64,000 nt of DNA from the NCBI RefSeq assembly GCF_019931755.1, contig NZ_CP082918.1, forward strand, positions 352,001-416,000, given 5' to 3'. The position numbers and the translations under genes are program-made. Below the pieces are notes generated by a model. The model searched no databases and was not told where the DNA came from. It saw only the letters and a list, made by a program, of their open reading frames with translations. Of this stretch, positions 25,257 through 62,725 are shown piece by piece. This DNA comes from Sutcliffiella horikoshii (GTDB lineage: Bacteria; Bacillota; Bacilli; Bacillales; Bacillaceae_I). The number at the start of each line of letters is the position of its first letter. The stretch's first letter is position 1.

Positions 25257-25445
25257 CCTGTAGATTGGAGTGCAAGGTGTGAGACTCCTCGAAAATGCTA
25301 GCGCATTTTCTTCGTGCGATGAATCGCTGTCGAAGCTTTCCTTGTCCTGAGGGAGATAGCGGTAGGTTGAGACCCTGCAGGCGAAGCCGAGGAGGCTCAA
25401 GCACCGCCCCTAGGAAAGCGAACACCTGGAACGGAAATCTACAGG
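25257..25445 (+). repeat. Palindromic leader element, copy 1 (long form), before guaA
   Basis: A 189-bp element bounded by perfect 10-bp inverted arms CCTGTAGATT / AATCTACAGG. Inside are GGAGT / ACTCC, GGTGT / ACACC, and GCGGT-N3-TTGAG / CTCAA-N2-ACCGC. An extra 59 bases (25290-25348) relative to the short form fold into two hairpins. It lies between the riboswitch terminator and the guaA ribosome site, so it is part of the mRNA leader. Confidence 0.93.
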
Positions 25446-25559
25446 AGTTAAAGAGATTAACCTTTTTAAAACAAAACAAAGGCATATCTTTCCTTTTGTA
25501 GGTCAAAATAAACGAAAAGATATGCTCCGAAAAATAATAAACTTATGAGGTGAATTCGG

Positions 25560-27098
25560 GTGGAAGGTATCCAAGAAATGGTCGTCGTCCTTGACTTCGG
25601 CAGTCAATATAACCAATTAATTACACGTCGTATCCGTGAGTTCGGTGTCTACAGCGAGCTACACCCACATACGATTACAGCAGAAGAAATCAAAAAAATG
25701 AACCCAAAAGGAATCATCCTTTCTGGCGGACCTAACAGCGTATACGGAGAAAACTCTTTCCGTTGTGACGAAGAAATCTTCGAACTTGGCATCCCTGTTC
25801 TAGGAATTTGCTACGGCATGCAGCTGATGACGATGCACTTCGGCGGCGTAGTGGAAAAAGCAAGTCACCGTGAATACGGAAAAGCACTTGCGACCGTATC
25901 TAACCAATCTACTGTGTATCAAGATATCCCAGAACAACAAGTTGTATGGATGAGCCACGGCGATTTAGTTGTTAAAGAGCCGGAAGATTTCGTAGTTGAT
26001 TTGACAAGCCCAGCATGTCCAATTGCCGGAATCAGTAATGAAGACAAGAAAATGTACGGTGTTCAATTCCACCCAGAGGTACGTCACTCTGTATATGGTA
26101 ACGACCTTTTAAGAAACTTTGTTTATAACGTTTGTGGCTGCACAGACAGCTGGACAATCGAGAACTTCCTTGAAATCGAAATGCAGAAGATCCGTGACGT
26201 TGTCGGCGATAAAAAAGTACTTTGCGCACTAAGTGGCGGAGTAGACTCTTCTGTTGTTGCCGTTTTGATCCACAAAGCGATCGGTGACCAGTTGACTTGT
26301 ATTTTCGTAGACCACGGTCTATTACGTAAAGACGAAGCGGACGCTGTAATGAAGACATTTAGCGAAGGCTTCAACATGAATGTAATCAAAGTAGATGCAA
26401 AAGACCGTTTCCTTAACAAGCTAAAAGGAGTTTCTGATCCTGAGCAAAAACGTAAAATCATCGGTAACGAGTTCATCTATGTATTTGATGATGAAGCTTC
26501 TAAATTAGAAGGCATCGACTATCTTGCACAAGGTACTCTTTATACAGATATCATCGAGAGCGGTACGGCAACAGCACAAACGATCAAATCTCACCACAAT
26601 GTGGGCGGACTTCCAGAGGACATGCAGTTCCAATTGATTGAGCCGTTGAACACATTGTTTAAGGATGAAGTTCGTGCATTAGGTTCAGAACTAGGTATTC
26701 CGGACGAAATCGTTTGGCGCCAGCCGTTCCCAGGACCAGGTCTTGGTATCCGTGTTCTTGGTGAAATCTCTGATGAAAAACTAGAGATTGTTCGCGAATC
26801 CGATCATATCCTTCGTGAAGAAATCAAAAAAGCGGGTCTTGACCGTGACATCTGGCAATACTTCACGGTACTTCCTGACATCCGCAGTGTAGGGGTAATG
26901 GGCGACCAACGTACGTACGATTACACAATCGGTATCCGTGCCGTGACATCCATTGATGGAATGACGTCCGATTGGGCGCGTATTCCTTGGGACGTGCTAG
27001 AAGTAATCTCTACACGTATCGTAAACGAAGTGGATCACATCAACCGCGTCGTGTATGACATTACAAGTAAGCCACCTGCAACGATTGAGTGGGAATAA
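25560..27098 (+). CDS. guaA: GMP synthase (glutamine-hydrolysing)
   Basis: A 512-residue two-domain enzyme converting XMP, ATP and glutamine to GMP, the last step of guanine nucleotide synthesis. The class I glutamine amidotransferase domain (about 8-195) has nucleophile Cys in GICYGMQ and the His-Glu pair in FHPEV. The ATP-pyrophosphatase domain has the PP-loop LSGGVDSSV (about 225-233), and the C-terminal dimerisation domain ends PPATIEWE. The start is GTG at 25560 after GAGGTGAA, giving the length of B. subtilis GuaA. The guanine riboswitch in its leader makes it feedback-controlled. Confidence 0.97.
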
Positions 27099-27105
27099 TA
27101 AATAA

Positions 27106-27140
27106 AAAAGCCGACCGGGATTGCCTGGTCGGCTTTTGCT
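27106..27140 (+). terminator. Terminator of guaA
   Basis: AAAAGCCGACC (27106-27116) pairs with GGTCGGCTTTT (27127-27137), eight bases after the stop. Confidence 0.93.
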
Positions 27141-27153
27141 TTGGGTGTAAAAA

Positions 27154-27187
27154 CGAACATTGGTAAAAAATATTTGTCGAATGTTCG
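27154..27187 (+). promoter_or_regulatory. Paired PurR boxes upstream of pbuG
   Basis: CGAACATT (27154-27161) and its inverse AATGTTCG (27180-27187) are 18 bases apart. This matches the two inverted PurBoxes that PurR of Bacillus binds, with PRPP as the inducer. They end ten bases upstream of the pbuG -35. Confidence 0.85.
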
Positions 27188-27196
27188 CTTTTTGTG

Positions 27197-27225
27197 TTGA
27201 CGAATCTTTGTGAGCTTGGTAATAT
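27197..27225 (+). promoter_or_regulatory. Sigma-A promoter of pbuG
   Basis: TTGACG (27197-27202), a 17-base spacer and TAATAT (27220-27225), between the PurR boxes and the riboswitch. Confidence 0.85.
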
Positions 27226-27260
27226 GAAAACAGAAATTATCATACATTTATAGTTCAAAT

Positions 27261-27327
27261 CTCGTATAAATTTGGGAATATGGCCCAAAAGTTTCTACCA
27301 GGCTACCGTAAACAGCTTGACTACGAG
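27261..27327 (+). promoter_or_regulatory. Guanine riboswitch of pbuG (aptamer)
   Basis: P1 is CTCGTA (27261-27266) with TACGAG (27322-27327). GGGAATATGGCCC and GTTTCTACC are the P2/L2 and junction signatures, and the discriminating base in TTGACTAC is C (guanine class). It is followed by a terminator. Confidence 0.95.
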
Positions 27328-27409
27328 GTATTAGGATTTTGTGCAGGACATCTATCTTTTTTCAGGTGGATGAGCTCTCTTTTTCCTATCCTCGTCAGTT
27401 AAATGTTAG

Positions 27410-43199: not shown

Positions 43200-43238
43200 A
43201 AACGTAGATGAAAACGAATTAAAAAACAAATAATGAAA

Positions 43239-43308
43239 CCTCATATAATTTTGGGAATATGGCCCATAAGTCTCTACCTGACCGCCGTAAATTGGTCGGA
43301 CTATGAGG
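43239..43308 (+). promoter_or_regulatory. Guanine riboswitch of the pur operon (aptamer)
   Basis: P1 is CCTCATA (43239-43245) with TATGAGG (43302-43308). GGGAATATGGCCC, GTCTCTACC and GGTCGGACTATG match the purine aptamer, and the discriminating base is C (guanine class). Confidence 0.95.
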
Positions 43309-43367
43309 GGAAGTTAACACTATCTATGTTTTTCATGGCGACTAAGTTTGTTTACCTATGCTAATGA

Positions 43368-43430: not shown

Positions 43431-43439
43431 AAAAATATA

Positions 43440-43572
43440 CCCTGTTGACTGGAGTGCAAGGTGTGAGACTCCTGAGGGAGATAGCGGTAGGTTGAGACCC
43501 CGCAGGCGAAAGCCCAGGAGGCTCAAGCACCGCCCCTAGGAAAGCGAATACCTGGAACGGAAGGAAACAGGG
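43440..43572 (+). repeat. Palindromic leader element, copy 2, before purE
   Basis: A 133-bp short-form copy with outer arms CCCTGTT / AACAGGG, inner pairs GGAGT / ACTCC, GGTGT / ATACC (G-U) and GCGGT-N3-TTGAG / CTCAA-N2-ACCGC. It ends 43 bases before the purE ATG and is transcribed as part of the leader after the terminator. Confidence 0.93.
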
Positions 43573-46531: not shown

Positions 46532-46546
46532 AATTGGTGGAGCACC

Positions 46547-46672
46547 GCTGTTGCTTTCCGCACTGGGCTTCGCTTTCCTAGGGACGGTGCTTGAGCCTCC
46601 TCACTTCGTTGCGGGGTCTCAAGCTACCGTTATCCCCCTCAGGAGTCTTCGCCCTGTGCTCCAAGCAACAGC
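46547..46672 (-). repeat. Palindromic leader element, copy 3 (inverted), between purB and purC
   Basis: A 126-bp short-form copy in the opposite orientation to the others. Outer arms are GCTGTTGCTT / AAGCAACAGC, a perfect 10-bp pair. Read on the minus strand it has GGAGC near the arm, GGGC / GCCC as the second helix and TTGAG / CTCAA as the third. Confidence 0.93.
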
Positions 46673-46719
46673 TAGGTTGTTTCGTCATAACAGCAGTCTA
46701 ATTGCATAAGATGTTTTGC

Positions 46720-46848
46720 CCTGTTCATTGGAGTGGAAGGCACGAGACTCCTGCGGGAGGAAGGGACAGGGGAGACCCCACAGGCGAAGCCGAGGAGGCT
46801 CCCGGACCGCCCGCGGAAAGCGAGTGCCTGCAACGGAAATGAACAGGG
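46720..46848 (+). repeat. Palindromic leader element, copy 4, before purC
   Basis: A 129-bp copy with perfect 11-bp outer arms CCCTGTTCATT / AATGAACAGGG. The second helix is GGCAC / GTGCC and the third GGGAG / CTCCC, so its arms differ from the other copies yet still pair. It ends 44 bases before the purC ATG. Confidence 0.94.
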
Positions 46849-46892
46849 AGTTTAACAGAAACACAATTCTCTTCTCTTTAGGAGGCAAACCC

Positions 46893-47618: not shown

Positions 47619-47865
47619 AGTGAAGGTATTCGTAACGTTAAGAGAGAGCGTATTAGATCCACAAGGAACAGCAGTGAAAAATTCGCTTCATAGTCTTTCT
47701 TACAAAGAGGTCGAGGAAGTTCGTATCGGAAAATTTTTAGAATTGACGATTGCTAAATCTGACCGTGACCTAGACGTGCTTGTAAAGGAAATGTGTGAAA
47801 GATTGCTTGCAAATACAGTGATTGAAGACTTCCGTTATGAGGTGGAGGAGGTTGTTGGATCGTGA
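47611..47865 (+). CDS. purS: FGAM synthase subunit PurS
   Basis: An 84-residue subunit that bridges PurQ and PurL in formylglycinamidine ribonucleotide synthase. It starts [18 protein letters not shown], the family signature. The start at 47611 follows GGAGGAGAG. It overlaps purC by eight bases and purQ by four bases. Confidence 0.96.
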
Positions 47866-48548
47866 AATTTGCAGTCATCGTGTTTCCGGGCTCCAACTGT
47901 GATGTAGACATGTACCACGCGATCAAAGACGAACTTGGGGAAGAAGTCGAGTATGTGTGGCATGATGCAACAAACTTAGATGAGTATGACGGGATTTTAC
48001 TACCAGGTGGATTTTCTTATGGGGATTACCTAAGATCTGGTGCGATTGCACGTTTTTCAAATGTCATGCTTGAGGTGCAAAAGGCAGCTGAAGCGGGTAA
48101 GCCGATATTAGGCGTATGCAACGGTTTTCAAATTTTACTGGAGTCAGGTCTTCTTCCAGGGGCAATGAGAAGAAACAAGAACTTAAAGTTCATGTGCCGT
48201 CCGGTGGAGTTAAAAGTGGTGAACAATGAGACGATGTTCACATCGGGGTATAAAAAAGATGAGATCATCACCATCCCCATTGCACATGGGGAAGGAAATT
48301 ACTATTGTGATGAGAAAACCTTAGGGGAATTAGTAAGCAATGGGCAAATTGCTTTTTCCTATAATGGTGACAATCCAAATGGTAGTCTACATGATATTGC
48401 CGGGATTGTAAATGAAAAAGGAAATGTACTAGGTATGATGCCACACCCGGAAAGAGCGGTTTCTGAGCTGTTGGGCAGTGCAGATGGCCTTAAACTCTTT
48501 CAATCTATCGTTCGTAATTGGAGGGAATCACATGTCGTTACTTCTTGA
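47862..48548 (+). CDS. purQ: FGAM synthase glutaminase subunit PurQ
   Basis: A 228-residue class I glutamine amidotransferase that supplies ammonia to PurL. The nucleophile Cys is in [11 protein letters not shown]; His and Glu of the triad are in MMPHPERAV. It starts with GTG inside the purS end (GTGA). purL starts 17 bases before its stop. Confidence 0.97.
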
Positions 48549-50754
48549 GCCAAATCCAGAGATGATCAAAGCGGAAGGCATTTACCGTGAAATGGGACTG
48601 AACGATGAAGAGTTCCTAATGGTAGAAAAAATTCTTAGGCGTTTGCCGAACTACACGGAAACCGGATTATTTTCGGTGATGTGGTCCGAGCATTGCAGCT
48701 ACAAGAATTCCAAGCCGGTATTGCGTAAGTTCCCGATTGATGGACCAAAAGTATTGCAAGGTCCTGGGGAAGGTGCGGGAATTGTGGACATCGGCGACAA
48801 TCAGGCAGTCGTGTTCAAAATCGAAAGTCATAATCACCCGTCTGCGATCGAGCCTTACCAAGGCGCAGCAACAGGTGTCGGTGGGATCATCCGAGATGTC
48901 TTTTCGATGGGCGCACGCCCGATTGCACTATTGAATTCTCTGCGCTTTGGAGAACTGACAACTCCGCGCGTGAAATATTTGTTTGAAGAAGTGGTGGCAG
49001 GAATCGCAGGCTACGGAAACTGTGTGGGCATCCCGACAGTTGGCGGCGAGATCCAGTTCGACCCGGCCTATGATGGCAACCCGCTCGTGAACGCGATGTG
49101 TGTGGGTCTGATCAATCATGAAGATATCAAAAAAGGGCAGGCAAAAGGTGTCGGCAATACCGTCATGTACGTTGGGGCAAAAACGGGACGCGATGGGATT
49201 CACGGGGCAACTTTTGCATCAGAAGAATTGTCGGAAGCGTCCGAAGAGAAACGTCCGGCGGTTCAAGTCGGCGATCCTTTTATGGAAAAATTGCTGCTTG
49301 AAGCTTGCTTGGAAATCGTGAAATGGGATGGCCTTGTTGGAATCCAGGACATGGGAGCGGCTGGTTTGACTAGTTCCTCTGCAGAAATGGCATCCAAGGC
49401 AGGTTCCGGGATTGAGATGAATCTGGATCTTGTGCCACAGCGTGAAACAGGCATGACTGGTTATGAAATGATGCTTTCGGAATCCCAAGAGCGCATGCTG
49501 ATCGTCGTGGAAGCGGGCCGTGAGCATGAAGCGCATGAGATTGTTTCGAAATATGGCTTAGAAGCTGTTTCGATTGGAAAAGTAACGGATGATAAGAAAT
49601 TGCGCCTTGTTCACAAAGGTGAAGTAATTGCAGATGTACCGGTCGATGCGTTGGCAGAGGAAGCGCCTGTTTACCACAAGCCTTCTACTGAGCCTGCTTA
49701 TTATCGTGAGTTCCAGGAGATGGAAGTAGCGGTGCCTGAAGTTGCGAACTATGAAGAGACGTTAGTGGCTCTGTTGAAACAGCCGACAATTGCGAGCAAA
49801 GAGTGGGTTTATGACCAATATGACTATCAGGTACGTACGAATACGGTAGTGGTTCCTGGTTCCGATGCGGCGGTGGTCCGTATCCGCGGGACAGAAAAGG
49901 CGTTGGCTATGACAACCGATTGTAACTCCCGTTATCTATATTTGGATCCGGAAGTCGGTGGCATGATTGCAGTGGCAGAAGCGGCACGTAATATCGTGTG
50001 TTCCGGTGCGAAGCCATTGGCTATCACAGACTGCTTAAATTTTGGTAATCCTGAAAAGCCGGAAATCTTCTGGCAGATTGAAAAAGCGACAGACGGCATG
50101 AGTGCAGCTTGCCGCAAGTTAGAATCCCCGGTTATCGGCGGAAATGTATCTTTATATAACGAAACAAACGGCGTGGCAGTTTACCCAACACCTGTAGTCG
50201 GCATGGTCGGGTTGATTGACGACTTGAAGCATGTGACAACTCAAGAGTTTAAGAACGAGGCCGACCTAATTTATGTGATCGGGGAGACGGCTTCCGAGTT
50301 TGGTGGAAGTGAGCTGCAAAAGCTTACGTACGGCAAGATTTTCGGTAAGGCACCTGCAATTGATTTAGATGTGGAAGCTAGACGTCAAGATGAGCTGTTG
50401 TCGGCAATCCGCGCTGGACTAGTTGCGTCTGCTCATGATGTATCTGAAGGTGGAGTAGGTGTGGCTTTGGCGGAGAGTGCGATGGGTGCCCGCGGTTTGG
50501 GAGCGGCAGTGACGCTAACGGGCGACATGACGTCTTCACTGTTCAGTGAAACACAATCTCGTTTTGTTGTCTCTGTTCGTCCTGAAAATCAAGAGGCATT
50601 TGAGGCAGCAGTTGCGGATGCTAGTTTAGTAGGAACGGTGACGGCAACAGGAAATCTTCATATTGAATCGGCATCTCGTGAAGTCGCAGTCCATATGTCT
50701 GTGGACGACCTTCGCGATGCTTGGAAAGGAGCTATTCCATGCTTGCTGAACTAA
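48532..50754 (+). CDS. purL: FGAM synthase large subunit PurL
   Basis: A 740-residue small-type PurL that converts FGAR to FGAM using ATP and the ammonia from PurQ. Landmarks are [23 protein letters not shown] and [19 protein letters not shown]. The start at 48532 is set by GGAGGG before the ATG; an upstream 18-residue extension is unlikely. It overlaps purF by 16 bases. Confidence 0.97.
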
Positions 50755-52154
50755 AAGGCTTGAATGAGGAATGTGGGGTGTTCGGGATCTGGGGACATCC
50801 CGAAGCTTCCCAGATTACCTATTACGGGTTGCACAGCCTGCAACACCGTGGCCAGGAAGGCGCAGGGATTGTTTCAACAGATGGGGAAAAGCTTGTCGCG
50901 GTAAAAGGGGAAGGCCTTGTGAACGAAGTGTTCGGTAATGGTAGATTGCAAGATCTTGGCGCTGGAAAAGCAGCGATTGGCCATGTTCGCTATGCAACGG
51001 CAGGGGGAGGCGGCTATGAGAATGTGCAGCCTTTACTTTTCCACTCTCAATCTGGCAGTCTTGCACTTGCCCATAATGGAAATCTCGTAAATGCCAACGC
51101 GTTGAAGCACCAGTTGGAAACGATGGGGAGTATTTTACAGACGACCTCTGACACAGAGGTGTTGGCTCATCTGATAAAAAGAAGCGGCTACACTCTTTTG
51201 AAGGATCGTGTAAAAAATGCGTTGTCGATGTTAAAAGGTGCGTATGCCTTTTTAATCATGACAGAGACAGAAATGATGGTCGCGCTTGATCCGAACGGCT
51301 TGCGTCCGCTTTCGTTGGGTAAGTTGAATGATGCTTATGTGGTCGCGTCGGAAACCTGTGCGTTTGATGTGGTTGGAGCGGAATTTATCCGTGACATTGA
51401 GCCTGGGGAGCTGTTGATCATCGATAATGGTGGCTTGCATTCTGAGCGGTTCACCTTGCATACCCAGCGTGCGATGTGCAGCATGGAGTACATTTATTTT
51501 TCCAGACCTGACAGCAATATTGACGGCATCAATGTGCATACAGCTAGAAAAAGCTTAGGCAAGCAGTTGGCAATGGAGTCAGCTGTGGAAGCGGATGTTG
51601 TAACTGGGGTACCGGATTCCAGTATTTCAGCGGCGATCGGCTATGCGGAGCTTTCTGGCATTCCTTATGAGCTTGGACTAATCAAAAATAGATATGTAGG
51701 CCGAACGTTCATTCAGCCTTCCCAAGCATTGCGTGAGCAGGGTGTGAAGATGAAGCTTTCTCCTGTCCGCGGTGTTGTGGAAGGCAAGCGCGTGGTGATG
51801 GTCGATGATTCGATCGTACGCGGGACGACAAGCAGAAGAATTGTGAAGATGCTTCGCGATGCAGGGGCAACAGAGGTGCATGTACGTATCAGTTCGCCAC
51901 CGATTAAGAATCCTTGTTTTTACGGAATCGACACGTCGACGCATGAAGAGTTGATTGCTTCTTCCCATTCTGTGGAGGAAATGCGTGAGATTATCGGTGC
52001 GGATTCGTTGGCGTTCTTGAGTCCTGGTGGCATGGTCGAGGCGATTGATCGCCCGTTTGAAGGGGAAACGCGCGGCCAGTGCATGGCGTGCTTTACCGGC
52101 AAGTATCCGACGGAGATTTTCCCGGACACCGTGCTGCCGCATGAGAAGTGCTAG
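50739..52154 (+). CDS. purF: Amidophosphoribosyltransferase
   Basis: A 471-residue enzyme for the first committed step: PRPP plus glutamine to phosphoribosylamine. The protein starts [12 protein letters not shown]; Cys12 is the N-terminal nucleophile, exposed after removal of an 11-residue propeptide as in B. subtilis PurF. The PRPP motif is [15 protein letters not shown]. The C-terminal part has conserved Cys residues ([20 protein letters not shown]) suited to the 4Fe-4S cluster of the Bacillus enzyme. The start at 50739 follows AAAGGAG. A 277-base gap with array G follows. Confidence 0.97.
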
Positions 52155-52183
52155 GTTGCAAGGCTTGGTGGGGCGCTGATTTT

Positions 52184-52284
52184 TGGAAAAGTTACAATAA
52201 CGGTTGGAAAAGTCACAATCAGCATGGAAAAAGTCACAATCAAAGTTAAAAAAGTTACAATAACACCAAAAATAGTTACAATCC
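52184..52284 (+). repeat. 21-bp tandem array G, five units
   Basis: GTTACAAT or GTCACAAT recurs at 52191, 52212, 52233, 52254 and 52275, exactly 21 bases apart, each preceded by an A-rich run. It starts 30 bases after the purF stop. The frame of purF stays open beyond its TAG for 58 codons through the array and reads a seven-residue KVTI-type repeat. Confidence 0.93.
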
Positions 52285-52372
52285 ACCGTGATACCCGTGT
52301 GACCCAGGGTAAAGTCATCCAAATACATTGAAAAACCAAACATAAATTACCTTTTTTCAAAAAAGCTTACAA

Positions 52373-52408
52373 AAAAGCGGCGGGATTCTTAAGATTCGTC
52401 GCTTTTCC
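52373..52408 (+). terminator. Intra-operon hairpin before purM
   Basis: AAAAGCGGCG pairs with CGTCGCTTTT (ten pairs, one G-U) around a 14-base loop containing TCTTAAGA. It ends 25 bases before the purM start with only four T residues. It may be a partial terminator or an mRNA-processing site that lowers or protects distal expression. Confidence 0.55.
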
Positions 52409-52431
52409 ATTGGAAGGGAGATACAACACAT

Positions 52432-53472
52432 ATGGCAAATGCATACAAGCAAGCGGGTGTAGATATAGAAGCGGGCTATGAAGCGGTGACGCGTATGAAA
52501 AAGCATGTGGCTAGAACGATGAGGCCAGAAGTGATGGGGGGGCTCGGCGGTTTTGGCGGCCTGTTTGACCTATCGGCGGTAAATGTGAAAAATCCGGTGC
52601 TCGTTTCCGGAACAGATGGAGTCGGCACAAAGCTGATGCTTGCTTTCCAGCTCGACAAACATGACACCATTGGGGTGGATGCAGTTGCGATGTGTGTGAA
52701 CGATGTCGTCGTGCAAGGCGCAGAGCCGCTTTATTTTCTGGACTATATTGCATGCGGAAAAGCGGTGCCGGAGCGCATTGAGAGCATCGTGAAAGGAATC
52801 GCGGACGGTTGTGAGCAAGCGGGATGCGCACTGGTTGGCGGCGAAACGGCAGAAATGCCTGGTATGTATGACGACACGGAGTATGATTTGGCAGGATTTA
52901 CGGTTGGCGTGGTAGACAAGGAGCGCTTGATTAATGGCTCCAAAATAGAGCCTGGAAACGTGTTGATTGGTCTAAGTTCAAGCGGAATTCATAGCAATGG
53001 GTACTCGTTGGTACGTAAAATTGTTTTTGAAAAAGGACAACTAGACCTCCATAAAAAGTACGATGGCTTTGACGGGACGCTTGGCGAAGAGCTACTGACT
53101 CCTACGAAAATTTATGTGAAACCAATCCTTGAAGTTCTGAAAAAATACGACATCAACGGAATGGCTCATATTACGGGCGGCGGATTTATCGAAAATATCC
53201 CACGCATGCTTCCAGAAGGATTGCAAGCTGAAGTGGATTATGGAACTTGGCCGATCCCGCCGATTTTCGATCTTTTACAAGAGGTTGGCGAGCTGGATCG
53301 CAAGGAAATGTTTAATATTTTCAACATGGGAATTGGCATGGTGCTTGCGATCAATGAAGAAATTTTACCGGAAGTGGTTCGTATCCTTGAAGGAAGCGGA
53401 GAGAAGGCGTACTTGATTGGCCGTGTAAAAGAAGGCGAGGGCATCACGTTTGGCGGAGGAGAAATCCGATGA
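52432..53472 (+). CDS. purM: Phosphoribosylformylglycinamidine cyclo-ligase (AIR synthetase)
   Basis: A 346-residue enzyme closing the imidazole ring of AIR with ATP. It starts [15 protein letters not shown], and has [32 protein letters not shown] and [11 protein letters not shown]. The start follows GGAAGGGAG. Its stop overlaps purN by four bases. Confidence 0.97.
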
Positions 53473-54059
53473 CAACGAGAATCGCCATTTTCGCTTCCGG
53501 AAGCGGCTCCAATTTTCAAGCGATCACGGACGCGTGCCGGAAAGGCTTGCTTGATGCCACACCGGCATTGCTTGTGTGTGACAGACCTGGCGCCTTTGTG
53601 GTGGAACGTGCGACGGCTGCAGACATTCCTTATTTTGCATTTGCACCGAAAAGCTATCAAAATAAAGAAGAATTTGAAGGTCATATTCTCCAAGAATTGG
53701 CGCGGTATAAAGTGGACTTTATCGTCCTGGCAGGGTATATGCGTCTGATCGGACCGACGCTGCTCAACGCTTATAAGGGGAGAATCGTCAATATCCACCC
53801 TTCACTCCTCCCGGCATTTCCAGGCCTTGATGCGGTTGGTCAAGCGCTCGATTATGGTGTGAAACTAACAGGAGTGACCATTCATTTTGTTGATGAAGGC
53901 ATGGACACCGGTCCAATCATCGCTCAACAGGCAATTGAAATTGGACCTGACGATACACGTGAAAGCTTAGAAACGAAAATACATGAGGTAGAACATTCAT
54001 TTTACCCAAAAACCTTACAACAACTTTTTTCAGTCAAAGGAGAGGCAGCGATACGATGA
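53469..54059 (+). CDS. purN: Phosphoribosylglycinamide formyltransferase
   Basis: A 196-residue folate-dependent GAR transformylase. It starts [16 protein letters not shown] and has the active-site segment [14 protein letters not shown] and [17 protein letters not shown] with catalytic Asp. It overlaps purM and purH by four bases on each side. Confidence 0.97.
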
Positions 54060-55585
54060 GAGCATTAGTGAGTGTTTCCAATAAAGAGGGCATCGTCCCA
54101 TTTGTACAACAATTAGTGGACCTGGGTGTGGAGGTTATCTCTACTGGAGGGACAAAAAAAGTTTTGCAGGATAATGGTGTGAAGGTAATCGGAATTTCCG
54201 AAGTGACAGGTTTCCCTGAAATCCTTGATGGCCGTGTGAAAACCTTGCACCCGATGATTCATGGTGGATTATTGGCAATGCGTGACAACGAAAGTCACCA
54301 AGCGCAGCTTGAGGAGCACGGAATTACTCCAATCGACTTGGTTGTGGTGAACCTTTATCCATTTAAAGAGACGATTTCTAAAACGGATTCCACGTTTGAA
54401 GATGCGATTGAAAACATCGATATCGGCGGACCGACCATGCTTCGTGCAGCAGCAAAAAATCATAAGGACGTTGCTGTTTTAGTAGATCCGGTTGACTACG
54501 ATGGCGTTATAGCTGAGCTAAAAGAAAGCGGAAAAGTCGAGGTGGCAACACGCCGTCGCCTTGCAGCAAAAGTATTCCGCCATACGGCAGCATATGACGC
54601 AATGATCTCCAACTACTTAACAGAAGCAGTGGAAGAAAAGCATCCTGAGTCATTGACTGTGACATTTGAGAAGAAACAAGACTTGCGCTACGGGGAGAAC
54701 CCGCACCAAAAGGCAGCTTTCTACCAAGCGCCACTTGCGTCTGAATTCTCTATTGCATCAGCCGAGCAGCTTCATGGAAAAGAATTATCCTACAACAATA
54801 TTAATGACGCAGATGCGGCATTGCAGATTGTAAAAGAATTCAAAGATCCTGCAGTAGTTGCAGTCAAACATATGAACCCTTGCGGCGTGGGAACTGGTGC
54901 AACAACGGTGGAAGCATACCGTCGTGCATATGAAGCAGATCCGGTATCCATTTTCGGCGGCATCATCGCTTTCAACACCGAAGTCGATAAGGAAACGGCA
55001 GAACTTTTACATGAATTGTTTTTGGAGATTGTTATTGCACCTTCCTTTAGTGAGGATGCGTTGGCTGTCTTGAAGCAGAAAAAGAATATCAGACTGTTAT
55101 TGGTAGATATGAACGGGGCAGGCGTGATGCAATCACGCATGGTATCCGTTCGCGGTGGTCTGTTGATGCAAGACGAGGATCAGTTTGGCCTGGAAGACGC
55201 GACGGTTACTATTCCAACAAAGCGCGAGCCTACCGAGCAAGAGTGGGCAGACTTGAAACTTGCATGGAAAGTCGTGAAGCATGTGAAATCCAACGCCATT
55301 GTTCTTGCAAAAGAAGGGCAGACTGTCGGCGTTGGTGCAGGACAGATGAACCGTGTTGGCGCAGCGAAAATCGCCATCGAGCAGGCTGGCGAAAAAGCAG
55401 CCGGTTCCGCACTGGGATCTGACGCCTTCTTCCCAATGAACGACACAGTCGAAGCAGCCGCAAAAGCCGGCGTAACCGCCATCATCCAACCAGGGGGCTC
55501 CATCAAAGACGAAGACTCCATCAAAAAAGCCGACGAACACGGCATCACCATGGTCTTTACCGGGATGAGACATTTTAAGCATTAA
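54056..55585 (+). CDS. purH: AICAR transformylase/IMP cyclohydrolase
   Basis: A 509-residue bifunctional enzyme for the last two steps to IMP. The N-terminal cyclohydrolase (about 1-190) begins [15 protein letters not shown] with STGGTKK. The transformylase domain has [23 protein letters not shown] with the catalytic Lys-His pair, and [17 protein letters not shown]. It overlaps purN by four bases; a 227-base gap follows. Confidence 0.97.
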
Positions 55586-55638
55586 TAGAAGGTTGTTCAT
55601 TAAATGAAAATAAGATTAGCAAATGATTGATCAGTTTC

Positions 55639-57163
<1,525 letters not shown>

Positions 57164-57205
57164 TTTTCATACCTCCTTATATTGTTCGACGTGAGTGACG
57201 AAAAC

Positions 57206-57241
57206 CCTTTGGGGGTCTGACCCCCAAAGGTGTTTTTTTTT
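57206..57241 (+). terminator. Terminator after the pur operon (GGGTCTGACCC palindrome)
   Basis: The 12-bp perfect arms CCTTTGGGGGTC / GACCCCCAAAGG around one base (57206-57230) are followed by TG and nine T residues. The core is the third copy of the GGGTCTGACCC palindrome of this window. Confidence 0.8.
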
Positions 57242-57263
57242 CATTTTTAAACTCATCTTCCCC

Positions 57264-57578
57264 TCAAGAAGGGTTGTAAGAGTCGGCTCCGTTGTCGCCG
57301 TTTGCTTTGGCTTCGAAGTCGTCGAAGTCGAAGTTGTAGTGGTTGTTTTCGCTGTTGTGGTCGTTGCGGTATTCTTGGAAGCGTTCGAAGCCTGCGGTCA
57401 TCGGGCAGTAGCGCAGGATACCTTCAGCGATTTTCATTCCGGCAAGCAGGGCAACAAGCTTGTAGGAGTCGCGGTGTGGACGGCGAACCATTTTGCTTGT
57501 AATCCAGGCTAATGTAGCAAATCCTGCTGTGATGCGAATCATCGCGTTGATGATGCTGATATTTGGTCTTACTTTCAT
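57264..57578 (-). CDS. DUF2892 (YgaP-like) membrane protein
   Basis: A 104-residue protein. NISIINAMIRITAGFATLAWI is the DUF2892 transmembrane signature (first helix about 8-27), with a second hydrophobic segment about 40-58 and an acidic Asn/Asp-rich C-terminal tail. The family is found alone or fused to rhodanese domains. The ribosome site is GGAGGG. It is divergent from yerA. Role is unknown. Confidence 0.8.
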   Translation of the reverse strand: MKVRPNISIINAMIRITAGFATLAWITSKMVRRPHRDSYKLVALLAGMKIAEGILRYCPMTAGFERFQEYRNDHNSENNHYNFDFDDFEAKANGDNGADSYNPS

Positions 57579-57794
57579 CAGAATCCCTCCAAAGTTTTTT
57601 AGGAACGATATGGTCGCCCCAATGATTTTCTTAAGTTAAACCATTAAATTGCATAAATTTTCACATAATTATCAATAACGATAATGCAAGCAAGACTCTG
57701 TTGTGGTACCATGGTAAAAAGAGGTTATATCAAAATAATATTTACCGAATAAATAAGATAAAGATACAATCTCACAAAGAGTGGGTGATAAATC

Positions 57795-59540
57795 ATGCAT
57801 GAACAAGCATATAGATGGAAAAACAAAAAAATTCGAGAACAGGTTGCCGTGATTGATGGGAAACAAGCACCAACCTTAGTCTTTACCAATGCAACATACT
57901 TAAATGTGCAATTAAAAACATGGATGACGGCAAACATCTGGATCCATGAAGATCGAATTGTCTATGTAGGGGACCAGCTGCCGGGAAACACAGTGAACAC
58001 AGAAATGGTCGATTGTACCTCGCAATTCCTTGTACCGGGATATATCGAGCCGCATGTGCATCCGTTTCAACTTTATAATCCCCTGTCCTTTGCGCAATAT
58101 GCATCTAAATTAGGAACAACCACCTTCGTCAATGACAACTTGATGCTTACTTTGCAGATGACAAAAAAGAAAGCGTTTTCTTTTATAGAGGAGATGAACA
58201 AGTCTGCTGCGACGATGTACTGGTGGTGCCGATTTGATGCGCAGACGGAGATCAAAAATGAGGATGATATTTTCTCAACCCCAAATATGAAAAGTTGGCT
58301 GAATCATCCTCTTGTAATGCAAGGCGGAGAATTGACATGCTGGCCGAAGTTAATGGCAGGCGACGACTTGATTCTGCATTGGGTACAAGAAGCGAATGCG
58401 CGCAAAAAGCCGGTGGAGGGTCATTTTCCTGGTGCTTCTGAAAAGACGCTGACCAAAATGCAGCTGCTTGGCATTCATAGCGACCATGAGGCGATGAACG
58501 GGGCGGATGTCATCAAACGCATCTCTCAAGGCTATCACGCTTCCTTGCGCTATTCGTCCATCAGGCCGGATCTTCCGTTAATTTTAGAAGAGCTTGAAGC
58601 GTCAGGCGTTCATTATTATGACCAGACTTTTTTCAACACAGACGGCTCTACACCGAGCTTTTATGAAAGCGGTGTCATTGACCGGACCATCGCCATTGCT
58701 TTAGACAAAGGAGTGCCGGCAATTGAGGCGTACAGAATGGCCTCTTATAATGCGGCAAGACATTTTTCTATTGATAAGTTGCATGGAAGCATTGCTCCTG
58801 GTCGGATCGCAAACATCAACTTCCTGAAGGCAAAAGAAGAGCCGACTCCAGTGTTCGTTCTTTCAAAAGGTATGTGGGTGACAAGGGACAACGAGCCGGT
58901 AAAGGAAGCTTTTCCTGCCCAGAATTGGCCTTCACTCGGCTTAGAGCCAATGAAACTTAATTGGGATTTAAGCATGGATGATTTACAATTTTCGATGGCA
59001 CTTGGGATGGAAATGGTTAACGAAGTGATTATCAAGCCATATACTATCTCAGTGGATGTTTCAGGTGACAGTCTGTCCACATCCCATGATCAGTCGTATC
59101 TCATGTTGATTGACCGGAAAGGGAAATGGCGTGTGAACACGATTCTTAAAGGGTTTGGCACGCATGTCCAAGGGTTTGCGAGCTCCTATTCCAATACAGG
59201 GGATATCGTGCTGATCGGCAAAGACAAGAGCGCTATGATGAAGGCGTTCCAACATATGAAAGACTTAGGCGGAGGAATGGTGCTGGTGGAAGATGGAGAA
59301 GTCATTTGTGACATCCCATTACCGCTTGCAGGTGGATTGTCGGATTGTAGCATGGAAGAGTTGATGAAGCAGGAAACAGAACTGCGAAATCAACTTTTTG
59401 AAAGAGGCTATAGCTTTAATGATCCGATCTATACGTTGTTATTTTTATCATCTACACATCTTCCTTATATTAGAATAACACCTAGAGGAATATACGATGT
59501 GATGAATAAAACGGTACTCTTTCCGTCAATAATGCGTTAA
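57795..59540 (+). CDS. yerA: Adenine deaminase-like amidohydrolase
   Basis: A 581-residue amidohydrolase-superfamily enzyme related to adenine deaminase AdeC. The metal motif PHVHPFQLYNP sits where AdeC has GHVHIES; LGTTTFVNDNLM, HFPGASEKTL and GIHSDHEAM follow. Length and context (next to yerB and yerC, after the pur operon) match B. subtilis YerA, which is annotated as a putative adenine deaminase. If active it would feed adenine into hypoxanthine salvage. The changed residues around the metal site leave the substrate open. The 216 bases before it hold only its ribosome site and A+T-rich DNA. Confidence 0.88.
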   Translation: MHEQAYRWKNKKIREQVAVIDGKQAPTLVFTNATYLNVQLKTWMTANIWIHEDRIVYVGDQLPGNTVNTEMVDCTSQFLVPGYIEPHVHPFQLYNPLSFAQYASKLGTTTFVNDNLMLTLQMTKKKAFSFIEEMNKSAATMYWWCRFDAQTEIKNEDDIFSTPNMKSWLNHPLVMQGGELTCWPKLMAGDDLILHWVQEANARKKPVEGHFPGASEKTLTKMQLLGIHSDHEAMNGADVIKRISQGYHASLRYSSIRPDLPLILEELEASGVHYYDQTFFNTDGSTPSFYESGVIDRTIAIALDKGVPAIEAYRMASYNAARHFSIDKLHGSIAPGRIANINFLKAKEEPTPVFVLSKGMWVTRDNEPVKEAFPAQNWPSLGLEPMKLNWDLSMDDLQFSMALGMEMVNEVIIKPYTISVDVSGDSLSTSHDQSYLMLIDRKGKWRVNTILKGFGTHVQGFASSYSNTGDIVLIGKDKSAMMKAFQHMKDLGGGMVLVEDGEVICDIPLPLAGGLSDCSMEELMKQETELRNQLFERGYSFNDPIYTLLFLSSTHLPYIRITPRGIYDVMNKTVLFPSIMR

Positions 59541-59585
59541 AATATAAAAGTATGAAAAAATACTAAAGGTTGTGTTTGTGTTAGG

Positions 59586-60641
59586 ATGAGTAGGAATAAG
59601 ATGTTGTTATTGTTGGCAAGCCTCATGCTTATGTTGGCGGGCTGTCAATCCAATAATGAAAAAAATGTTGATTCTAGTCAAGAGCAAAGTGAAGAGACCA
59701 CGGAAGTAGCGATAGAAGAGGAAGAGCAAGTGGCAACAGAGGTTTCCGAACCGATGGAGCAAGCACCGTTAACTGGAGAAATGGTTGAGGAAAAGGTAGA
59801 TGCCCGACCTGTTGCAGTGATGGTGAATAATGATATAAAAGCAAGGCCACAGTCTGGATTGCATAAGGCCGATATTGTATATGAAGTGCTGGCAGAAGGC
59901 GATATTACAAGACTCCTTGCGATTTTTCACAGTGAAATGCCGGAAACTGTCGGCCCTGTCAGGAGCTCAAGAGCATATTTTGTAGATTTGGCAAAAGGCT
60001 ATGACCCATTATATGTTTTTCATGGTTGGAGTCCTGGTGCCAAAGAGAAGATACAAGCAGGAGAAGTGGATGGAATTAACGGCCTGACCTATGACGGAAC
60101 GCTTTTCAAACGGGCAAGTTTCCGAAAGGCGCCGCATAATTCCTATATCAGCTCTGAAAATATCCAAAAAGGCGCAGAGCTACAAAATTATGAGACACAA
60201 GCGGAGGTCAAACCTTTCACCTTTTTTAAAAAAGGACAGATCAATCCATATGAAGGTACCGCTTTAGAACAAGTGAAAATTGAATACTCATCCAGACAGG
60301 CAACACATGTTGAATATAGATACGATCCTGAGAAAAAAGGATATGTCCGCTATAGTGGCGGCGTGAAGCACACAGACCTTGAAACGAAGGAAGAGATTGT
60401 GGCACATAATGTTTTCTTAGTAGAAACGTCTCATCTTGTGGTAGATAAACAAGGTAGAAGGGACATCGATATTACTTCCGGCGGCAACGGTGTGCTCATC
60501 CAAAATGGAGAGCGTTTCGATGTGGAATGGAAATCGGTGGACGGCAAGATCCTTCCCTACAAAAATGGCGAACAGGTCCCACTTGCCCCAGGCAAAACGT
60601 GGATTCAAATTATTCCCGATTTTGAAAAAGTCATATACTAG
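59586..60641 (+). CDS. yerB: DUF3048 lipoprotein
   Basis: A 351-residue lipoprotein. The signal peptide ends in lipobox LAGC (Cys about residue 20), then an acidic linker (about 22-70) and the two DUF3048 lobes: RPVAVMVNNDIKARPQSGL, DIVYEVLAEGDITRLLAIF, VGPVRSSRAYFVDLA, and the C-terminal GKTWIQIIPDF. It follows yerA by 45 bases and precedes yerC by 27, as in B. subtilis. Function is unknown. Confidence 0.9.
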   Translation: MSRNKMLLLLASLMLMLAGCQSNNEKNVDSSQEQSEETTEVAIEEEEQVATEVSEPMEQAPLTGEMVEEKVDARPVAVMVNNDIKARPQSGLHKADIVYEVLAEGDITRLLAIFHSEMPETVGPVRSSRAYFVDLAKGYDPLYVFHGWSPGAKEKIQAGEVDGINGLTYDGTLFKRASFRKAPHNSYISSENIQKGAELQNYETQAEVKPFTFFKKGQINPYEGTALEQVKIEYSSRQATHVEYRYDPEKKGYVRYSGGVKHTDLETKEEIVAHNVFLVETSHLVVDKQGRRDIDITSGGNGVLIQNGERFDVEWKSVDGKILPYKNGEQVPLAPGKTWIQIIPDFEKVIY

Positions 60642-60668
60642 TCTTAATTAGCAAAGGAGAAATCAATC

Positions 60669-60980
60669 ATGCAAATCAATAAACTACGTGGAAAAGAACT
60701 GGATCAACTTTTTGAATCTATTCTTTCTTTAAAAGATATGGAAGAGTGCTATCGATTTTTCGATGACCTCTGTACCATCAATGAAATCCAATCTTTGGCA
60801 CAGCGCCTAGAGGTGGCAAGAATGCTGAGAGAAGGTTTCACGTATCATAAAATCGAGACAGAAACCGGTGCAAGCACTGCGACAATCTCTCGTGTGAAAC
60901 GTTGCCTGAACTATGGTAACGATGCTTACGAGATGGCGCTTGAGCGTATTGCAGAAGAGAAAAAAACTGAAGAAGTGTAA
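60669..60980 (+). CDS. yerC: TrpR-like DNA-binding protein YerC
   Basis: A 103-residue YerC/YecD-family protein with a TrpR-type helix-turn-helix: TINEIQSLAQRLEVARMLREG then TYHKIETETGASTATISRVKRCLNYG. The regulon is not known. The ribosome site is AAAGGAG. It is the third gene of the yerA-B-C cluster. Confidence 0.93.
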   Translation: MQINKLRGKELDQLFESILSLKDMEECYRFFDDLCTINEIQSLAQRLEVARMLREGFTYHKIETETGASTATISRVKRCLNYGNDAYEMALERIAEEKKTEEV

Positions 60981-60992
60981 ATGAGTTAAGGT

Positions 60993-61032
60993 GGCCCGCT
61001 GTGATGGAAATGCAGCGGGCCATCTTTTTTTC
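60993..61032 (+). terminator. Terminator of yerC
   Basis: GGCCCGCTG (60993-61001) pairs with CAGCGGGCC (61013-61021), followed by ATCTTTTTTTT. Confidence 0.93.
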
Positions 61033-61056
61033 CATGGATGGAGCTCCGTTCTATCT

Positions 61057-61312
61057 GCCCGAACAGTGGGAGGAACCCCATGAAAAGTCTAATAGAAGGG
61101 CTCTATAAGCCCGAACGGTGGGGAAAACCCCGTGAAAAGTCTAATAGAACGCTTCTATACGCCCGAACGGTGGGGGAAACCCTATGAAAAGTCTAATAGA
61201 AGGGCTCTATACGCCCGAACCACGTGAAATTCTTCATAAAAAGTCTAATAGAAGGGTTCTATATGCCCGAACTGCGTGAAATCCCCCATGAAAAGTCTAA
61301 TAGAACGGTTCC
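61057..61312 (+). repeat. 52-bp tandem array E, five units
   Basis: GCCCGAAC starts units at 61057, 61109, 61161, 61213 and 61265, exactly 52 bases apart. The interior AAAAGTCTAATAGAA is constant, and most units contain ATAGAA-N3-TTCTAT, a hairpin with a three-base loop. The sequence is unlike arrays A-D although the period is the same. It follows the yerC terminator directly. Confidence 0.93.
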
Positions 61313-61340
61313 TCTTAACTTCTCTCAACCAAACAAACTA

Positions 61341-61371
61341 AAAAACCGCCTCTTATTAAGAAGCGGTTTTT
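61341..61371 (-). terminator. Terminator of the small minus-strand gene
   Basis: AAAAACCGC (61341-61349) pairs with GCGGTTTTT (61363-61371); the minus strand continues with T residues. It lies 31 bases beyond the stop at 61402. Confidence 0.85.
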
Positions 61372-61401
61372 CAAAAGTAAAAACTCTAAAGAAACCATGC
61401 A

Positions 61402-61563
61402 TCATCGATAAAACGTCTCTTGATTTGATTTTACTTGGTCGACTGTTTTAGTGGATGCCGAGGGGTCTGCCGTACTCCTTCTTCTTTTCCCAAAATAGTC
61501 TACGAGCGCACCGAAGGCCAAAAGAATTGCAAATCCGATAACAAACCATAGCCACATAGGCAT
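61402..61563 (-). CDS. Small membrane protein, 53 residues
   Basis: Start ATG (61563-61561) follows AAGGAGGTG. The product begins MPMWLWFVIGFAILLAFGAL, one helix (about 4-22), then VDYFGKRRRS and a hydrophilic tail. It has its own terminator. It is divergent from pcrB. I do not recognise the family; expression signals and topology make it a likely real gene. Confidence 0.7.
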   Translation of the reverse strand: MPMWLWFVIGFAILLAFGALVDYFGKRRRSTADPSASTKTVDQVKSNQETFYR

Positions 61564-61789
61564 GTTGGACACCTCCTTATCACATCATATTTTGGACCGG
61601 GGGCGATATGCATTCATTTATCAAAAGGCAACTATTTTCCTAAGTATTCTTAATGGTGTTATTTTCTACTTACCCGCTATCTAGAAGGAATAACAGACCA
61701 CAGAAAAAATAAATCTTTTGGTCTACTGTAAAAGGTCGTAACTTCCAGTAAACAATCTCTGTTTCTCTTTTTCGTATTAGCTGGGATTT

Positions 61790-61798
61790 TGCTATAAT
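61790..61798 (+). promoter_or_regulatory. Extended -10 promoter of pcrB
   Basis: TGCTATAAT, a consensus -10 (61793-61798) with TGn extension. No good -35 is visible. It lies 35 bases before the GTG start. Confidence 0.65.
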
Positions 61799-61833
61799 AG
61801 GGGAATGGAAAATTAGAATGGGGGACGTTTGCA

Positions 61834-62523
61834 GTGTTAATGGAAATACGTGAGTGGAAGCACGTTTTTAAATTGGATCCTAATAAAGAGATATCGGACG
61901 AAGATTTAGAGCTTGTGTGCGAATCTGGCACAGATGCTATTCTAGTCGGAGGTACGGACGGGGTCACATTGGACAATGTGCTGAGCCTGATGAGCAGGGT
62001 GCGCAGATATTCCTTGCCGTGTGCATTGGAGGTTTCCACCATTGAATCGGTCACGCCGGGATTTGATTTTTATTTTATCCCAAGTGTGTTGAACAGCAGA
62101 AAGACAGAATGGGTCACAGACCTTCATATAGAAGCGCTAAAAGAGTACGGCGATATCATGAACTGGGAGGAAATCGTGGCTGAAGGATACTGCATCCTTA
62201 ATGCCGACTGCAAAGCTGCCAAGCTGACAGATGCAAAAACGGACCTCGACAAAGAAGATGTGATCGCTTATGCAAGATTGGCGGAGAAAATGTTTAATCT
62301 GCCTATCTTTTACTTAGAATATAGTGGTACGTACGGGGACGTGGAAATGGTCCAGGCGGCAAAACAAACACTAGAAAAGACGCAACTGTTCTACGGAGGC
62401 GGCATCTCCACGGCAGAGCGCGCCAAAGAAATGGTAGCCCACGCTGATACCGTAGTAGTAGGAAATGCCGTATACGATAACTTAAAAGAAGCCCTAAAAA
62501 CAGTAGACGCTGTGAAAAATTAG
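61834..62523 (+). CDS. pcrB: Heptaprenylglyceryl phosphate synthase
   Basis: A 229-residue TIM-barrel enzyme that in Bacillus joins glycerol-1-phosphate to heptaprenyl diphosphate, giving an archaeal-type ether lipid. It contains [53 protein letters not shown] and FYGGGI. The start is GTG at 61834 (GGGGGA eight bases before), ahead of an in-frame ATG at 61840. It precedes pcrA as in B. subtilis, with a palindromic element between. Confidence 0.94.
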
Positions 62524-62541
62524 TAGTAGCCAGATATTCTA

Positions 62542-62725
62542 GCTGTTGATTGGAGCACAGGGCGAAGACTCCTCGAAAATGCTACGCATTTTCTTCGTGC
62601 GATGTATCGCTGTCGAAGCCTTCCTTGTCCTGAGGGAGATAGCGGTAGGTTGAGACCCCGCAACGAAGTGAGGAGGCTCAAGCACCGCCCCTAGGAAAGC
62701 GAAGCCCAGTGCGGAAATCAACAGC
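62542..62725 (+). repeat. Palindromic leader element, copy 6 (long form), before pcrA
   Basis: A 184-bp copy with perfect outer arms GCTGTTGATT / AATCAACAGC, second helix GGGC / GCCC and third TTGAG / CTCAA. It carries the same two-hairpin insertion (62574-62631) as copy 1. It ends 96 bases before the pcrA ATG. Confidence 0.93.

Follow-up and report, generated by a model that had tools for sequence, protein, structure and literature searches.

Six palindromic copies around the purine genes

The window (the whole 64,000-nucleotide stretch of DNA analyzed) carries six copies of a palindromic sequence. The first, a solo copy of A type and long variant (25254..25446, plus strand), has a purine riboswitch (25020-25121) on one side and the guaA ORF (25560-27098) on the other, and includes a hairpin-like internal insert of 59 bp with TCC at both ends (25289..25347, plus strand, limits by eye). 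Another solo A-type copy (43438..43572, plus strand) is located 43 bp before purE (43616) and shortly downstream of a terminator-like hairpin and T-run (by eye) that trail a second purine riboswitch (43221-43323). A divergent doublet occupies the purB-purC gap and is comprised of an inverted B-type copy as its first half (46546..46675, minus strand) and an A-type copy as its second half (46717..46848, plus strand), the latter 44 bp before purC (46893). The remaining two are a solo A-type copy in the purH-purD gap (55637..55769, plus strand), 43 bp before purD (55813), and a solo B-type copy of the long variant (62539..62726, plus strand), which lies 15 bp past the heptaprenylglyceryl phosphate synthase ORF (61834-62523) and has a 58-bp insert (62573..62630, plus strand, limits by eye) of the same kind as the first copy.

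An earlier note on this DNA had placed six palindromic copies here, and both reading and alignment of the copies to each other bore out every position and strand. It had also suggested a covariance model; the one built (R1, from 60 sequences including four of the six window copies) gave six matches over the whole window at E <=0.1, which are these six copies, with 119.7-142 bits. The outer arms quoted in the note are present and complementary. Its account needs correction in detail: the second helix of the copy at 43440 is GGTGT/ATACC rather than GGTGT/ACACC, one pair being G-T, and two of the six copies (25257 and 62542) are lengthened by an internal insert of 58-59 bp. In genome G013, a copy at the same site lacks the 59-bp insert of the 25257 copy, a comparison that concerns this insert only. 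RNA folding of four of the six copies yielded z values from -4.94 to -7.55, except that 43440-43572 gave -3.75 when its reverse strand was folded.

Four of the copies belong to the pur operon, leader included, one is upstream of guaA, and two follow purine riboswitches, which would suit a role confined to pur genes, as a leader or regulator that responds to purines; the note had likewise singled out leaders of purE, purC, and purD. This reading is hardly credible given that copies occur by the hundreds across the genome, that the purB-purC gap holds copies in 12 of 21 species and none in the other nine, and that the riboswitches near two copies are separate, full-length matches.

Abundance, spread, and relatives of the repeat

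The repeat unit is an imperfect palindrome of 125-135 bp with nested helices, mostly intergenic, which occurs solo or as a divergent doublet. A total of 126 matches was found in 1.644 Mb sampled from this genome (80 stretches minus L038, which falls within the window), and extrapolation gives approximately 340 per genome; the six window copies are a minor fraction of several hundred. Nineteen units overlap a called ORF, and these ORFs were taken mostly for spurious. Matches were detected in 233 of 299 genomes at the order level and in 56 of 250 at the class level, in agreement with the statement in the earlier note that similar palindromes are common in Bacillaceae. With regard to other replicons, 15 of 72,556 plasmid records contain matches, eight of which cover at least 80% of the query, and all of these hosts are Bacilli as judged by genus name; there was no match in 50,697 phage records.

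A comparison with Rfam had also been proposed in the note. In the covariance-model search, the six copies had no match at gathering score, and the region 43400-62800, containing five of them, had none up to E 1. The comparison did provide a distant candidate relative, tsr24 (RF02577), a small RNA of Staphylococcus aureus. The core of both of its arms aligns to copy L064 with 29.5 bits, the E value being 1e-4 in a search of 601 bases and 0.012 in one of 69,400 bases, and all 16 scored candidates in one genome of the class match it, whereas the best of the matches listed for this genome reaches 28.6 bits, below the gathering cut-off of 50. The apical part is different, and Rfam files tsr24 as an sRNA rather than a repeat. 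It looks like a distant relative, and the repeat may connect this staphylococcal 'sRNA' with a repeat family.

No paper recognizable as describing the repeat was found in the open-access literature library. Bcr1, Bant-1, Bhal-1, and Bhal-2 are tabulated as stem-loop repeats of Bacillus species (PMC2267715, in excerpt), and the present repeat may be identical to Bhal-1 or Bhal-2. The family is very large, with short units dispersed in intergenic positions in many Bacillus relatives, and is apparently still without a name. By these counts, it is very widely spread in Bacilli, yet has no matching Rfam family of its own.

Covariation, wobble pairs, and loops

The alignment left out 11 of the 126 matches (score <60 or length >140); the other 115 copies were reduced to 63, and three long-insert copies were then excluded from alignment A2, in which L107 and L052, both with a long insert, were kept. 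Among 60 copies of this genome, standard pairs make up 94.5% of the pair cells, and both sides have changed in 206 cells as against 70.6 in shuffles. Covariation scores 0.345, compared with 0.145 for shuffled alignments and at most 0.072 for slid ones. Covariation beyond shuffles is the pattern sought in tests for structured RNA. With one copy per genome (n=20, the 12 copies with listed placement representing 12 genera), 20 of the 40 predicted pairs have changed on both sides. The co-variation of the arms reported in the note is thus upheld.

The note had further taken the matched changes as a sign that structure is under selection. That covariation by itself shows this for RNA is not supported by the main wobble counts. 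At the pairs of the element, 75 G-T oppositions were counted vs. 100 A-C, whereas 30 purine riboswitches used as a control gave 22 vs. 4 under the same rule and 35 vs. 4 without it. The 29 core pairs gave 26 vs. 46. Single pairs dominate these totals (39 of the 100 A-C come from one pair and 24 of the 75 G-T from another), and removal of both leaves 47 G-T vs. 59 A-C. One-sided changes between nearest neighbors lean in the opposite direction (G-T 54, A-C 33). Across genomes, the count is 28 G-T vs. 7 A-C if a constant T-G opposition (18 of 20) is included and 10 vs. 7 if it is not (9 to 6 in another count); in alignment A2, 27 of 60 copies have U-G at one of the RNAalifold pairs. Wobble pairs are few and their counts mixed overall; the main counts show G-T no commoner than A-C at pairs; covariation alone is therefore no proof of RNA selection. 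Double Watson-Crick changes separate nearest neighbors in 85 cases, and 40 of these are of kinds unlinked by any single wobble step.

Template switching has been described as giving rise to compensatory changes of several bases at once (PMC8794818, in excerpt). Inverted loops, one footprint of a template switch, were not seen (0 loop pairs); their absence and the mixed wobble counts are observations that sit uneasily with a mobile-DNA origin. Some pairing differences can be followed between genomes. At one site compared between G000 and G013, a helix differs on both sides and the outer arms and flanks agree; similarly, in the purB-purC gap, the B copies of this genome and of L142 have a second helix with differences in both of its strands, and L147 and L149 are chimeric copies with a broken second helix. 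Hairpin parts have been exchanged at a fixed site, with flanks and outer arms unchanged.

The unpaired bases of the plus strand are 42% A and 34% G. The apical loop is C(GNA)G in 75 of the 112 copies read and in 0 of 295 terminator-like hairpins, although 46 of the latter have three-base loops. GNA loops occur in RNA too. The stable DNA heptamer has two G-C pairs, and only 41 of the 112 loops have both; extraordinary stability is described for DNA mini-hairpins that combine a GNA loop with two or more G-C pairs (PMC4686876, in excerpt).

Orientation, placement, and possible mode of spread

Solo copies between co-directional genes are oriented sense in 42 cases and antisense in 11, and in gaps with <=150 bp besides the copy, the counts are 20 and 1. 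The sense bias implies that transcription or transcripts matter. Convergent and divergent sites show no bias (9 vs. 8), and an orientation linked to replication is hence unsupported; genes on the lagging strand gave 3 vs. 2, five copies in all. The sense bias is weaker in the named genomes, of which 117 stretches were used (39 vs. 20; tight gaps 3 vs. 2).

These data bear on whether the copies act as structured RNA, i.e., as hairpins in leaders or between cistrons that govern the processing, stability, or translation of the mRNA, with arms kept paired by RNA selection in the manner of ERIC, whose orientation is crucial for its effect on mRNA stability (PMC2229807, in excerpt). The sense bias and its absence at convergent and divergent sites, the A- and G-rich unpaired bases, the low folding z values, the lean of one-sided changes towards G-T, and the small-RNA entry in Rfam for tsr24, a likely relative, would all fit. 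Set against them are the main wobble counts, which differ from the riboswitch control, the lack of any Rfam match up to E 1 in 43400-62800, the weaker bias in the named genomes, and the chimeras with a broken second helix, and such a function appears possible but rather doubtful. The fit of sense bias and A-rich loops to a functional RNA also counts against the mobile-DNA reading favored below.

Close pairs have a fixed arrangement: all 21 in this genome and all eight in the 117 stretches of named genomes are minus/plus, i.e., divergent, with 5′ ends facing each other, and among the matches listed, 20 of the 21 doublets have one half of the B class (end classes). Neighbors 200-5000 bp apart have no preferred order (11, 10, 9, 9). 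Exceptions occur in two other genomes, at L154 (minus-minus-plus-plus) and L185 (three same-strand copies in a row), and such close same-strand copies are unexpected for mobile DNA.

Both ERIC and REPINs resemble the repeat in part. ERIC is a palindromic, intergenic element of 127 bp that is co-transcribed with its neighbors (PMC2229807, in excerpt); the likeness in size (about 127 bp), palindrome, interspersed intergenic place, and orientation bias is all that was seen here, whereas the present repeat occurs in Bacilli, forms divergent doublets, and has arms that co-vary between copies. REPINs are inverted doublets of REP sequences in which compensatory changes are described as common (PMC3116915, in excerpt), and inverted doublets with a spacer as well as compensatory changes are found here. 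However, each half is a 125-135 bp palindrome rather than a 20-40 bp unit with a GTAG or CGTC tag (GTAG directly precedes the unit in one of 45 B-type copies among the matches listed), and no RAYT gene lies nearby.

Mobilization of a REP/REPIN-type system by a resident REP-associated tyrosine transposase was considered in view of the REPIN-like doublets. Within the genus, each of the 16 genomes searched has a Y1 transposase match (one weak, with a stop); the gene found here reaches 77.5 bits against NCBIfam REP_Tyr_transpos (cut-off 80). In the set of 299 genomes, genes and copies occur together more often than expected by chance (odds ratio 2.65, p 0.0007), an association that is itself at odds with the mobile-DNA reading favored below. 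Nevertheless, no credible copy lies within 1.5 kb of 30 such genes (one match at E 0.84), so none of these loci is flanked by cognate copies; 89 of the 233 copy-bearing genomes lack the gene at E 1e-15, 25 genomes have the gene without copies, and the units are too long. Co-occurrence is loose but significant; this mobilizer is disfavored and seems improbable. An autonomous element between distant minus/plus copies was also sought: among the nine such neighbors listed, the one looked into (L034) has ORFs that are not transposase-like and that resemble an arginase, a sigma factor, and an anti-sigma partner. Thus, neither an autonomous partner nor a mobilizing transposase was found at the 30 REP-type loci or in L034.

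Close species differ in the presence of copies: two such differences, read for a target-site duplication, were found between G000 and G013, neither of them clean at the base; two further stretches of this genome had no additional empty sites.

On balance, we lean towards a non-autonomous, REPIN/ERIC-like interspersed mobile repeat of Bacilli, and the non-autonomous element offered in the earlier note is the best fit. Such an element would spread and be copied as DNA, its plus strand folding when single-stranded or extruding. Pairing may be kept by template switching, a mismatch in one arm being copied away from the other, or else by spread being limited to well-folded copies. Insertions would survive best just past terminators or stop codons; within operons, the antisense orientation may be weeded out, its pyrimidine-rich transcript perhaps upsetting transcription, and the sense hairpin may be tolerated or mildly useful as intercistronic mRNA structure. 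It is a more speculative and somewhat unlikely proposal that these are class-wide mobile elements that propagate via one folded, GNA-capped DNA strand and whose covariation was written by DNA copying between the arms. If true, it would be a natural case of covariation tests wrongly reporting a 'conserved RNA structure'. The repeat is a test case for separating RNA selection from palindrome copying at the DNA level, and its copies supply natural insertions near genes by the hundreds, biased in orientation.

Copies are also frequent near terminators: 23 of 74 solo copies and 15 of 21 doublets, compared with 92 of 822 random gap points. The corresponding counts are 14/53, 8/12, and 69/587 in tandem gaps and 5/13, 6/7, and 19/85 in convergent gaps. 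This proximity suits targeting and survival alike.

Copies, abundance and spread of the repeat

All six copies of a palindromic element proposed in an earlier note were found, by sequence reading and alignment, at the places described. They lie upstream of guaA (25254-25446, plus), in the purE leader 3′ of the riboswitch (43438-43572, plus), as a divergent pair in the purB-purC gap (46546-46675, minus; 46717-46848, plus), in the purH-purD gap (55637-55769, plus), and 3′ of the heptaprenylglyceryl phosphate synthase gene (62539-62726, plus). A covariance model of the element, built from 60 copies in the S. horikoshii genome (four of the six window copies among them), picked out exactly these six when the window was searched to E 0.1, scoring them at 119.7-142 bits. 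No Rfam family matched the six copies at the gathering score, and none matched window positions 43400-62800, which cover five of the six, up to E 1. Purine riboswitches occur three times in the 64-kb window (25020-25121, 27242-27343 and 43221-43323), with seven matches genome-wide.

The unit is an extended hairpin, imperfectly paired and built of nested helices; in its unpaired plus-strand columns, A accounts for 42%, G for 34%, and C and T for 12% each. Two end types are present in the window, A (CCCTGTT...AACAGGG) and B (GCTGTT...AACAGC), and sorting of the copies by end type gave 8 A, 45 B, 30 C and 32 unsorted. A hairpin-like insert of 58-59 bp recurs at one internal position, at 25289-25347 and 62573-62630 in the window, where each of its ends carries TCC, and in the sampled loci L012, L051, L052, L083 and L107; the copy of a close species (genome G013) at the site of 25289-25347 is devoid of it.

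The genome was sampled over 1.644 Mb, comprising the window and 79 stretches of 20 kb at even spacing (80 were drawn, and the one lying inside the window was omitted). An HMM search of this sample yielded 126 matches, partial ones counted, with at least one in 48 of the 79 stretches, and extrapolation gives approximately 340 copies per genome. Among 299 genomes of the order, 233 had matches at E 1e-5, representing 93 of 116 genera, and many of them had at least 11; the class gave 56 of 250 genomes, from 25 of 106 genera. When named genomes were scanned with a pattern, at least 117 stretches with the element were returned, those listed including Peribacillus, Priestia, Rossellomorea, Neobacillus, Cytobacillus, Halobacillus, Oceanobacillus and Sporosarcina. 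It was also found in 15 of 72,556 plasmid records (at least 80% of the query covered in 8) and in none of 50,697 phage records. One pattern match, in a record titled Arthrobacter beigongshangensis (L353), an actinobacterium label, likely reflects contamination or mislabelling. The family described here is real and large, and apparently unnamed.

Covariation of the arms and the level of pairing

The co-varying arms, taken in the earlier note as a mark of selection for structure, proved real and more extensive than described. Among the 60 copies, standard pairs fill 94.5% of pair cells, cells changed on both sides number 206 against 70.6 after shuffling, and the covariation score is 0.345 against 0.145 shuffled, falling to 0.072 or less when the partner is slid. 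A cross-genome set took one copy from each of 20 genomes (L191-L210, of which the first belongs to this genus; those with a listed place, 12 in number, represent 12 genera), and in it both sides have changed at 20 of 40 predicted pairs. The 5′ outer arms occur in 50 distinct versions among 115 copies; in the 36 copies whose arm is unique, the inner seven pairs are perfect in 17 and carry one mismatch in 10.

If an RNA fold were upheld, G-U would be expected to be tolerated and A-C would not. Under a 60% rule, 39 pairs in 115 copies gave 3871 Watson-Crick, 75 G-T, 100 A-C and 357 other combinations, versus 490, 22, 4 and 19, respectively, in 30 control purine riboswitches; without this rule, the counts were 4060, 96, 140 and 534 for the elements and 507, 35, 4 and 19 for the riboswitches. 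The 100 A-C include 39 from a single pair, and the 75 G-T include 24 from another; with both pairs removed, 47 G-T stand against 59 A-C, and the 29 core pairs have 26 against 46. The opposite trend is seen in one-sided changes between nearest neighbours (54 G-T, 33 A-C). In the cross-genome set, G-T versus A-C is by our own sums 28 versus 7 with a constant T-G opposition (18 of 20) included, and 10 versus 7 (9 versus 6 in another count) with it excluded; this region would be fully Watson-Crick if the T were bulged. For the 60-copy alignment, one pair of the RNAalifold structure is U-G in 27 copies, within a local hairpin that we think is wrong. The test is therefore mixed, and on balance the elements are unlike the riboswitch. 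Since neutral decay after insertion also equalizes G-T and A-C, the counts speak only against an RNA fold being maintained in standing copies, and not against an RNA constraint on a source element.

Nearest neighbours differ by 85 double Watson-Crick changes, where about one would be expected from the single-change rate by our own estimate; 40 of these are impossible via one wobble step and 45 are of possible kinds. For rRNA, 61.0% of instantaneous compensatory changes are given as of kinds reachable via one wobble step (PMC8794818), and the same source describes template switching as able to produce multibase compensatory changes in one event. Loop inversion, the other footprint of template switching, was not seen among the element loops.

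Of 112 copies, 75 have the apical loop C(GNA)G, N being any of the four bases, and 9 have C(GNRA)G; the heptamer GCGNAGC was counted by us in 41 loops. C(GNA)G did not occur in any of 295 terminator-like hairpins from this sample, of which 46 have a three-base loop. DNA mini-hairpins with GNA or GNNA loops and at least two G-C pairs are described as extraordinarily stable (PMC4686876). Two copies contain an IS3-family element inside the apical loop, in opposite orientations (L083 6046-7498 and L084 13230-14683), and this insertion is apparently specific for the hairpin tip. A third copy (minus, beside the match in L010) shows one end of this IS3-family insertion sequence.

Doublets, exchange and orientation

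All 21 close pairs in the S. horikoshii sample are ordered minus-then-plus, with 5′ ends face to face and a spacer of 49 or 81-90 bp, as are 8 of 8 close pairs in the named-genome stretches; no order preference was found among neighbours at 200-5000 bp. Two arrangements depart from this rule, a minus-minus-plus-plus set of four in the purB-purC gap of L154 and three plus copies in direct tandem, spaced by about 163 bp, at L185 1338-1794. At the purE site, a doublet is present in 5 of 10 close relatives, L148 has a vestige of the minus half beside its plus half, L142 has a short derivative whose own arms match each other, and S. horikoshii has the plus half alone; at least the solo purE copy may therefore be what is left of a doublet. 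At L086 13480-13920, a B-type copy sits within another, with about 45-50 bp of additional flank per side.

Individual helices also differ between otherwise matching copies. At L033 8664 versus L241 9084 (G000 versus G013, two close species), one helix differs on both sides with matching flanks and outer arms, and G013 has imperfect pairing in the next helix inward. The second helix of the purB-purC B copy likewise differs on both sides between S. horikoshii and L142, the outer arms being the same, and in L147 and L149 the A copy of this gap is a one-sided chimera whose second helix is broken. Copies occupy the purB-purC gap in 12 of 21 species and are absent in 9. G000 and G013 differ by presence or absence at two sites, where no clean target duplication was readable; at both, the extra DNA reaches about 30-45 bp past the palindrome per side. 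The purH-purD gaps devoid of the element (L146, L149 and L152) carry other short repeats, GAAGGGATT-like and GTCCGAA-like.

With genes taken from our own ORF calls, solo copies between co-directional genes are sense in 42 cases and antisense in 11 (41 and 11 with a laxer gene list); the ratio is 20 to 1 where no more than 150 bp of gap remains, and 22 to 10 otherwise. Measured against replication, copies at convergent and divergent sites are split 9 to 8 in orientation, so the sense bias follows transcription. A weaker bias was found in named genomes (39 sense versus 20, p 0.018; 3 versus 2 in tight gaps, among at least 117 stretches). Only 4 of 70 placed solo copies lie in divergent gaps, although such gaps account for 52 of the 276 kb between genes. 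Terminator-like hairpins lie close to copies more often than to random gap points.

Relation to known repeats and candidate mobilisers

The closest systems in manner of working are ERIC or REPIN. Between the leader RNA and the non-autonomous element suggested earlier, we lean slightly towards an ERIC/REPIN-like mobile repeat, with pairing probably kept at the DNA level and an additional orientation effect at the mRNA level. A Y1/REP-type transposase match is present in 16 of 16 genomes of the genus, at one or two per genome, and no copies were found flanking those transposase genes that were looked at. Among 299 genomes, 144 have both repeat and transposase gene, 89 the repeat only, 25 the gene only and 41 neither; this co-occurrence is loose though significant (odds ratio 2.65, p 0.0007, uncorrected for kinship). 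A REP-associated-type tyrosine transposase gene lies at L168 1267-1863 (minus strand).

The Rfam model tsr24 matches a copy in L064, with which it shares the core of both arms, at 29.5 bits against a cut-off of 50 (E 0.012, or 1e-4 in 601 bases). In the class, tsr24 matches 11 of 121 genomes and reaches the cut-off in 4, in one of which 16 of 16 scored candidates match it; the four matches in the S. horikoshii genome are all sub-threshold. On these sub-threshold scores, tsr24 is taken as a putative distant member of the repeat family, in which case the filed sRNA would be a repeat sequence.
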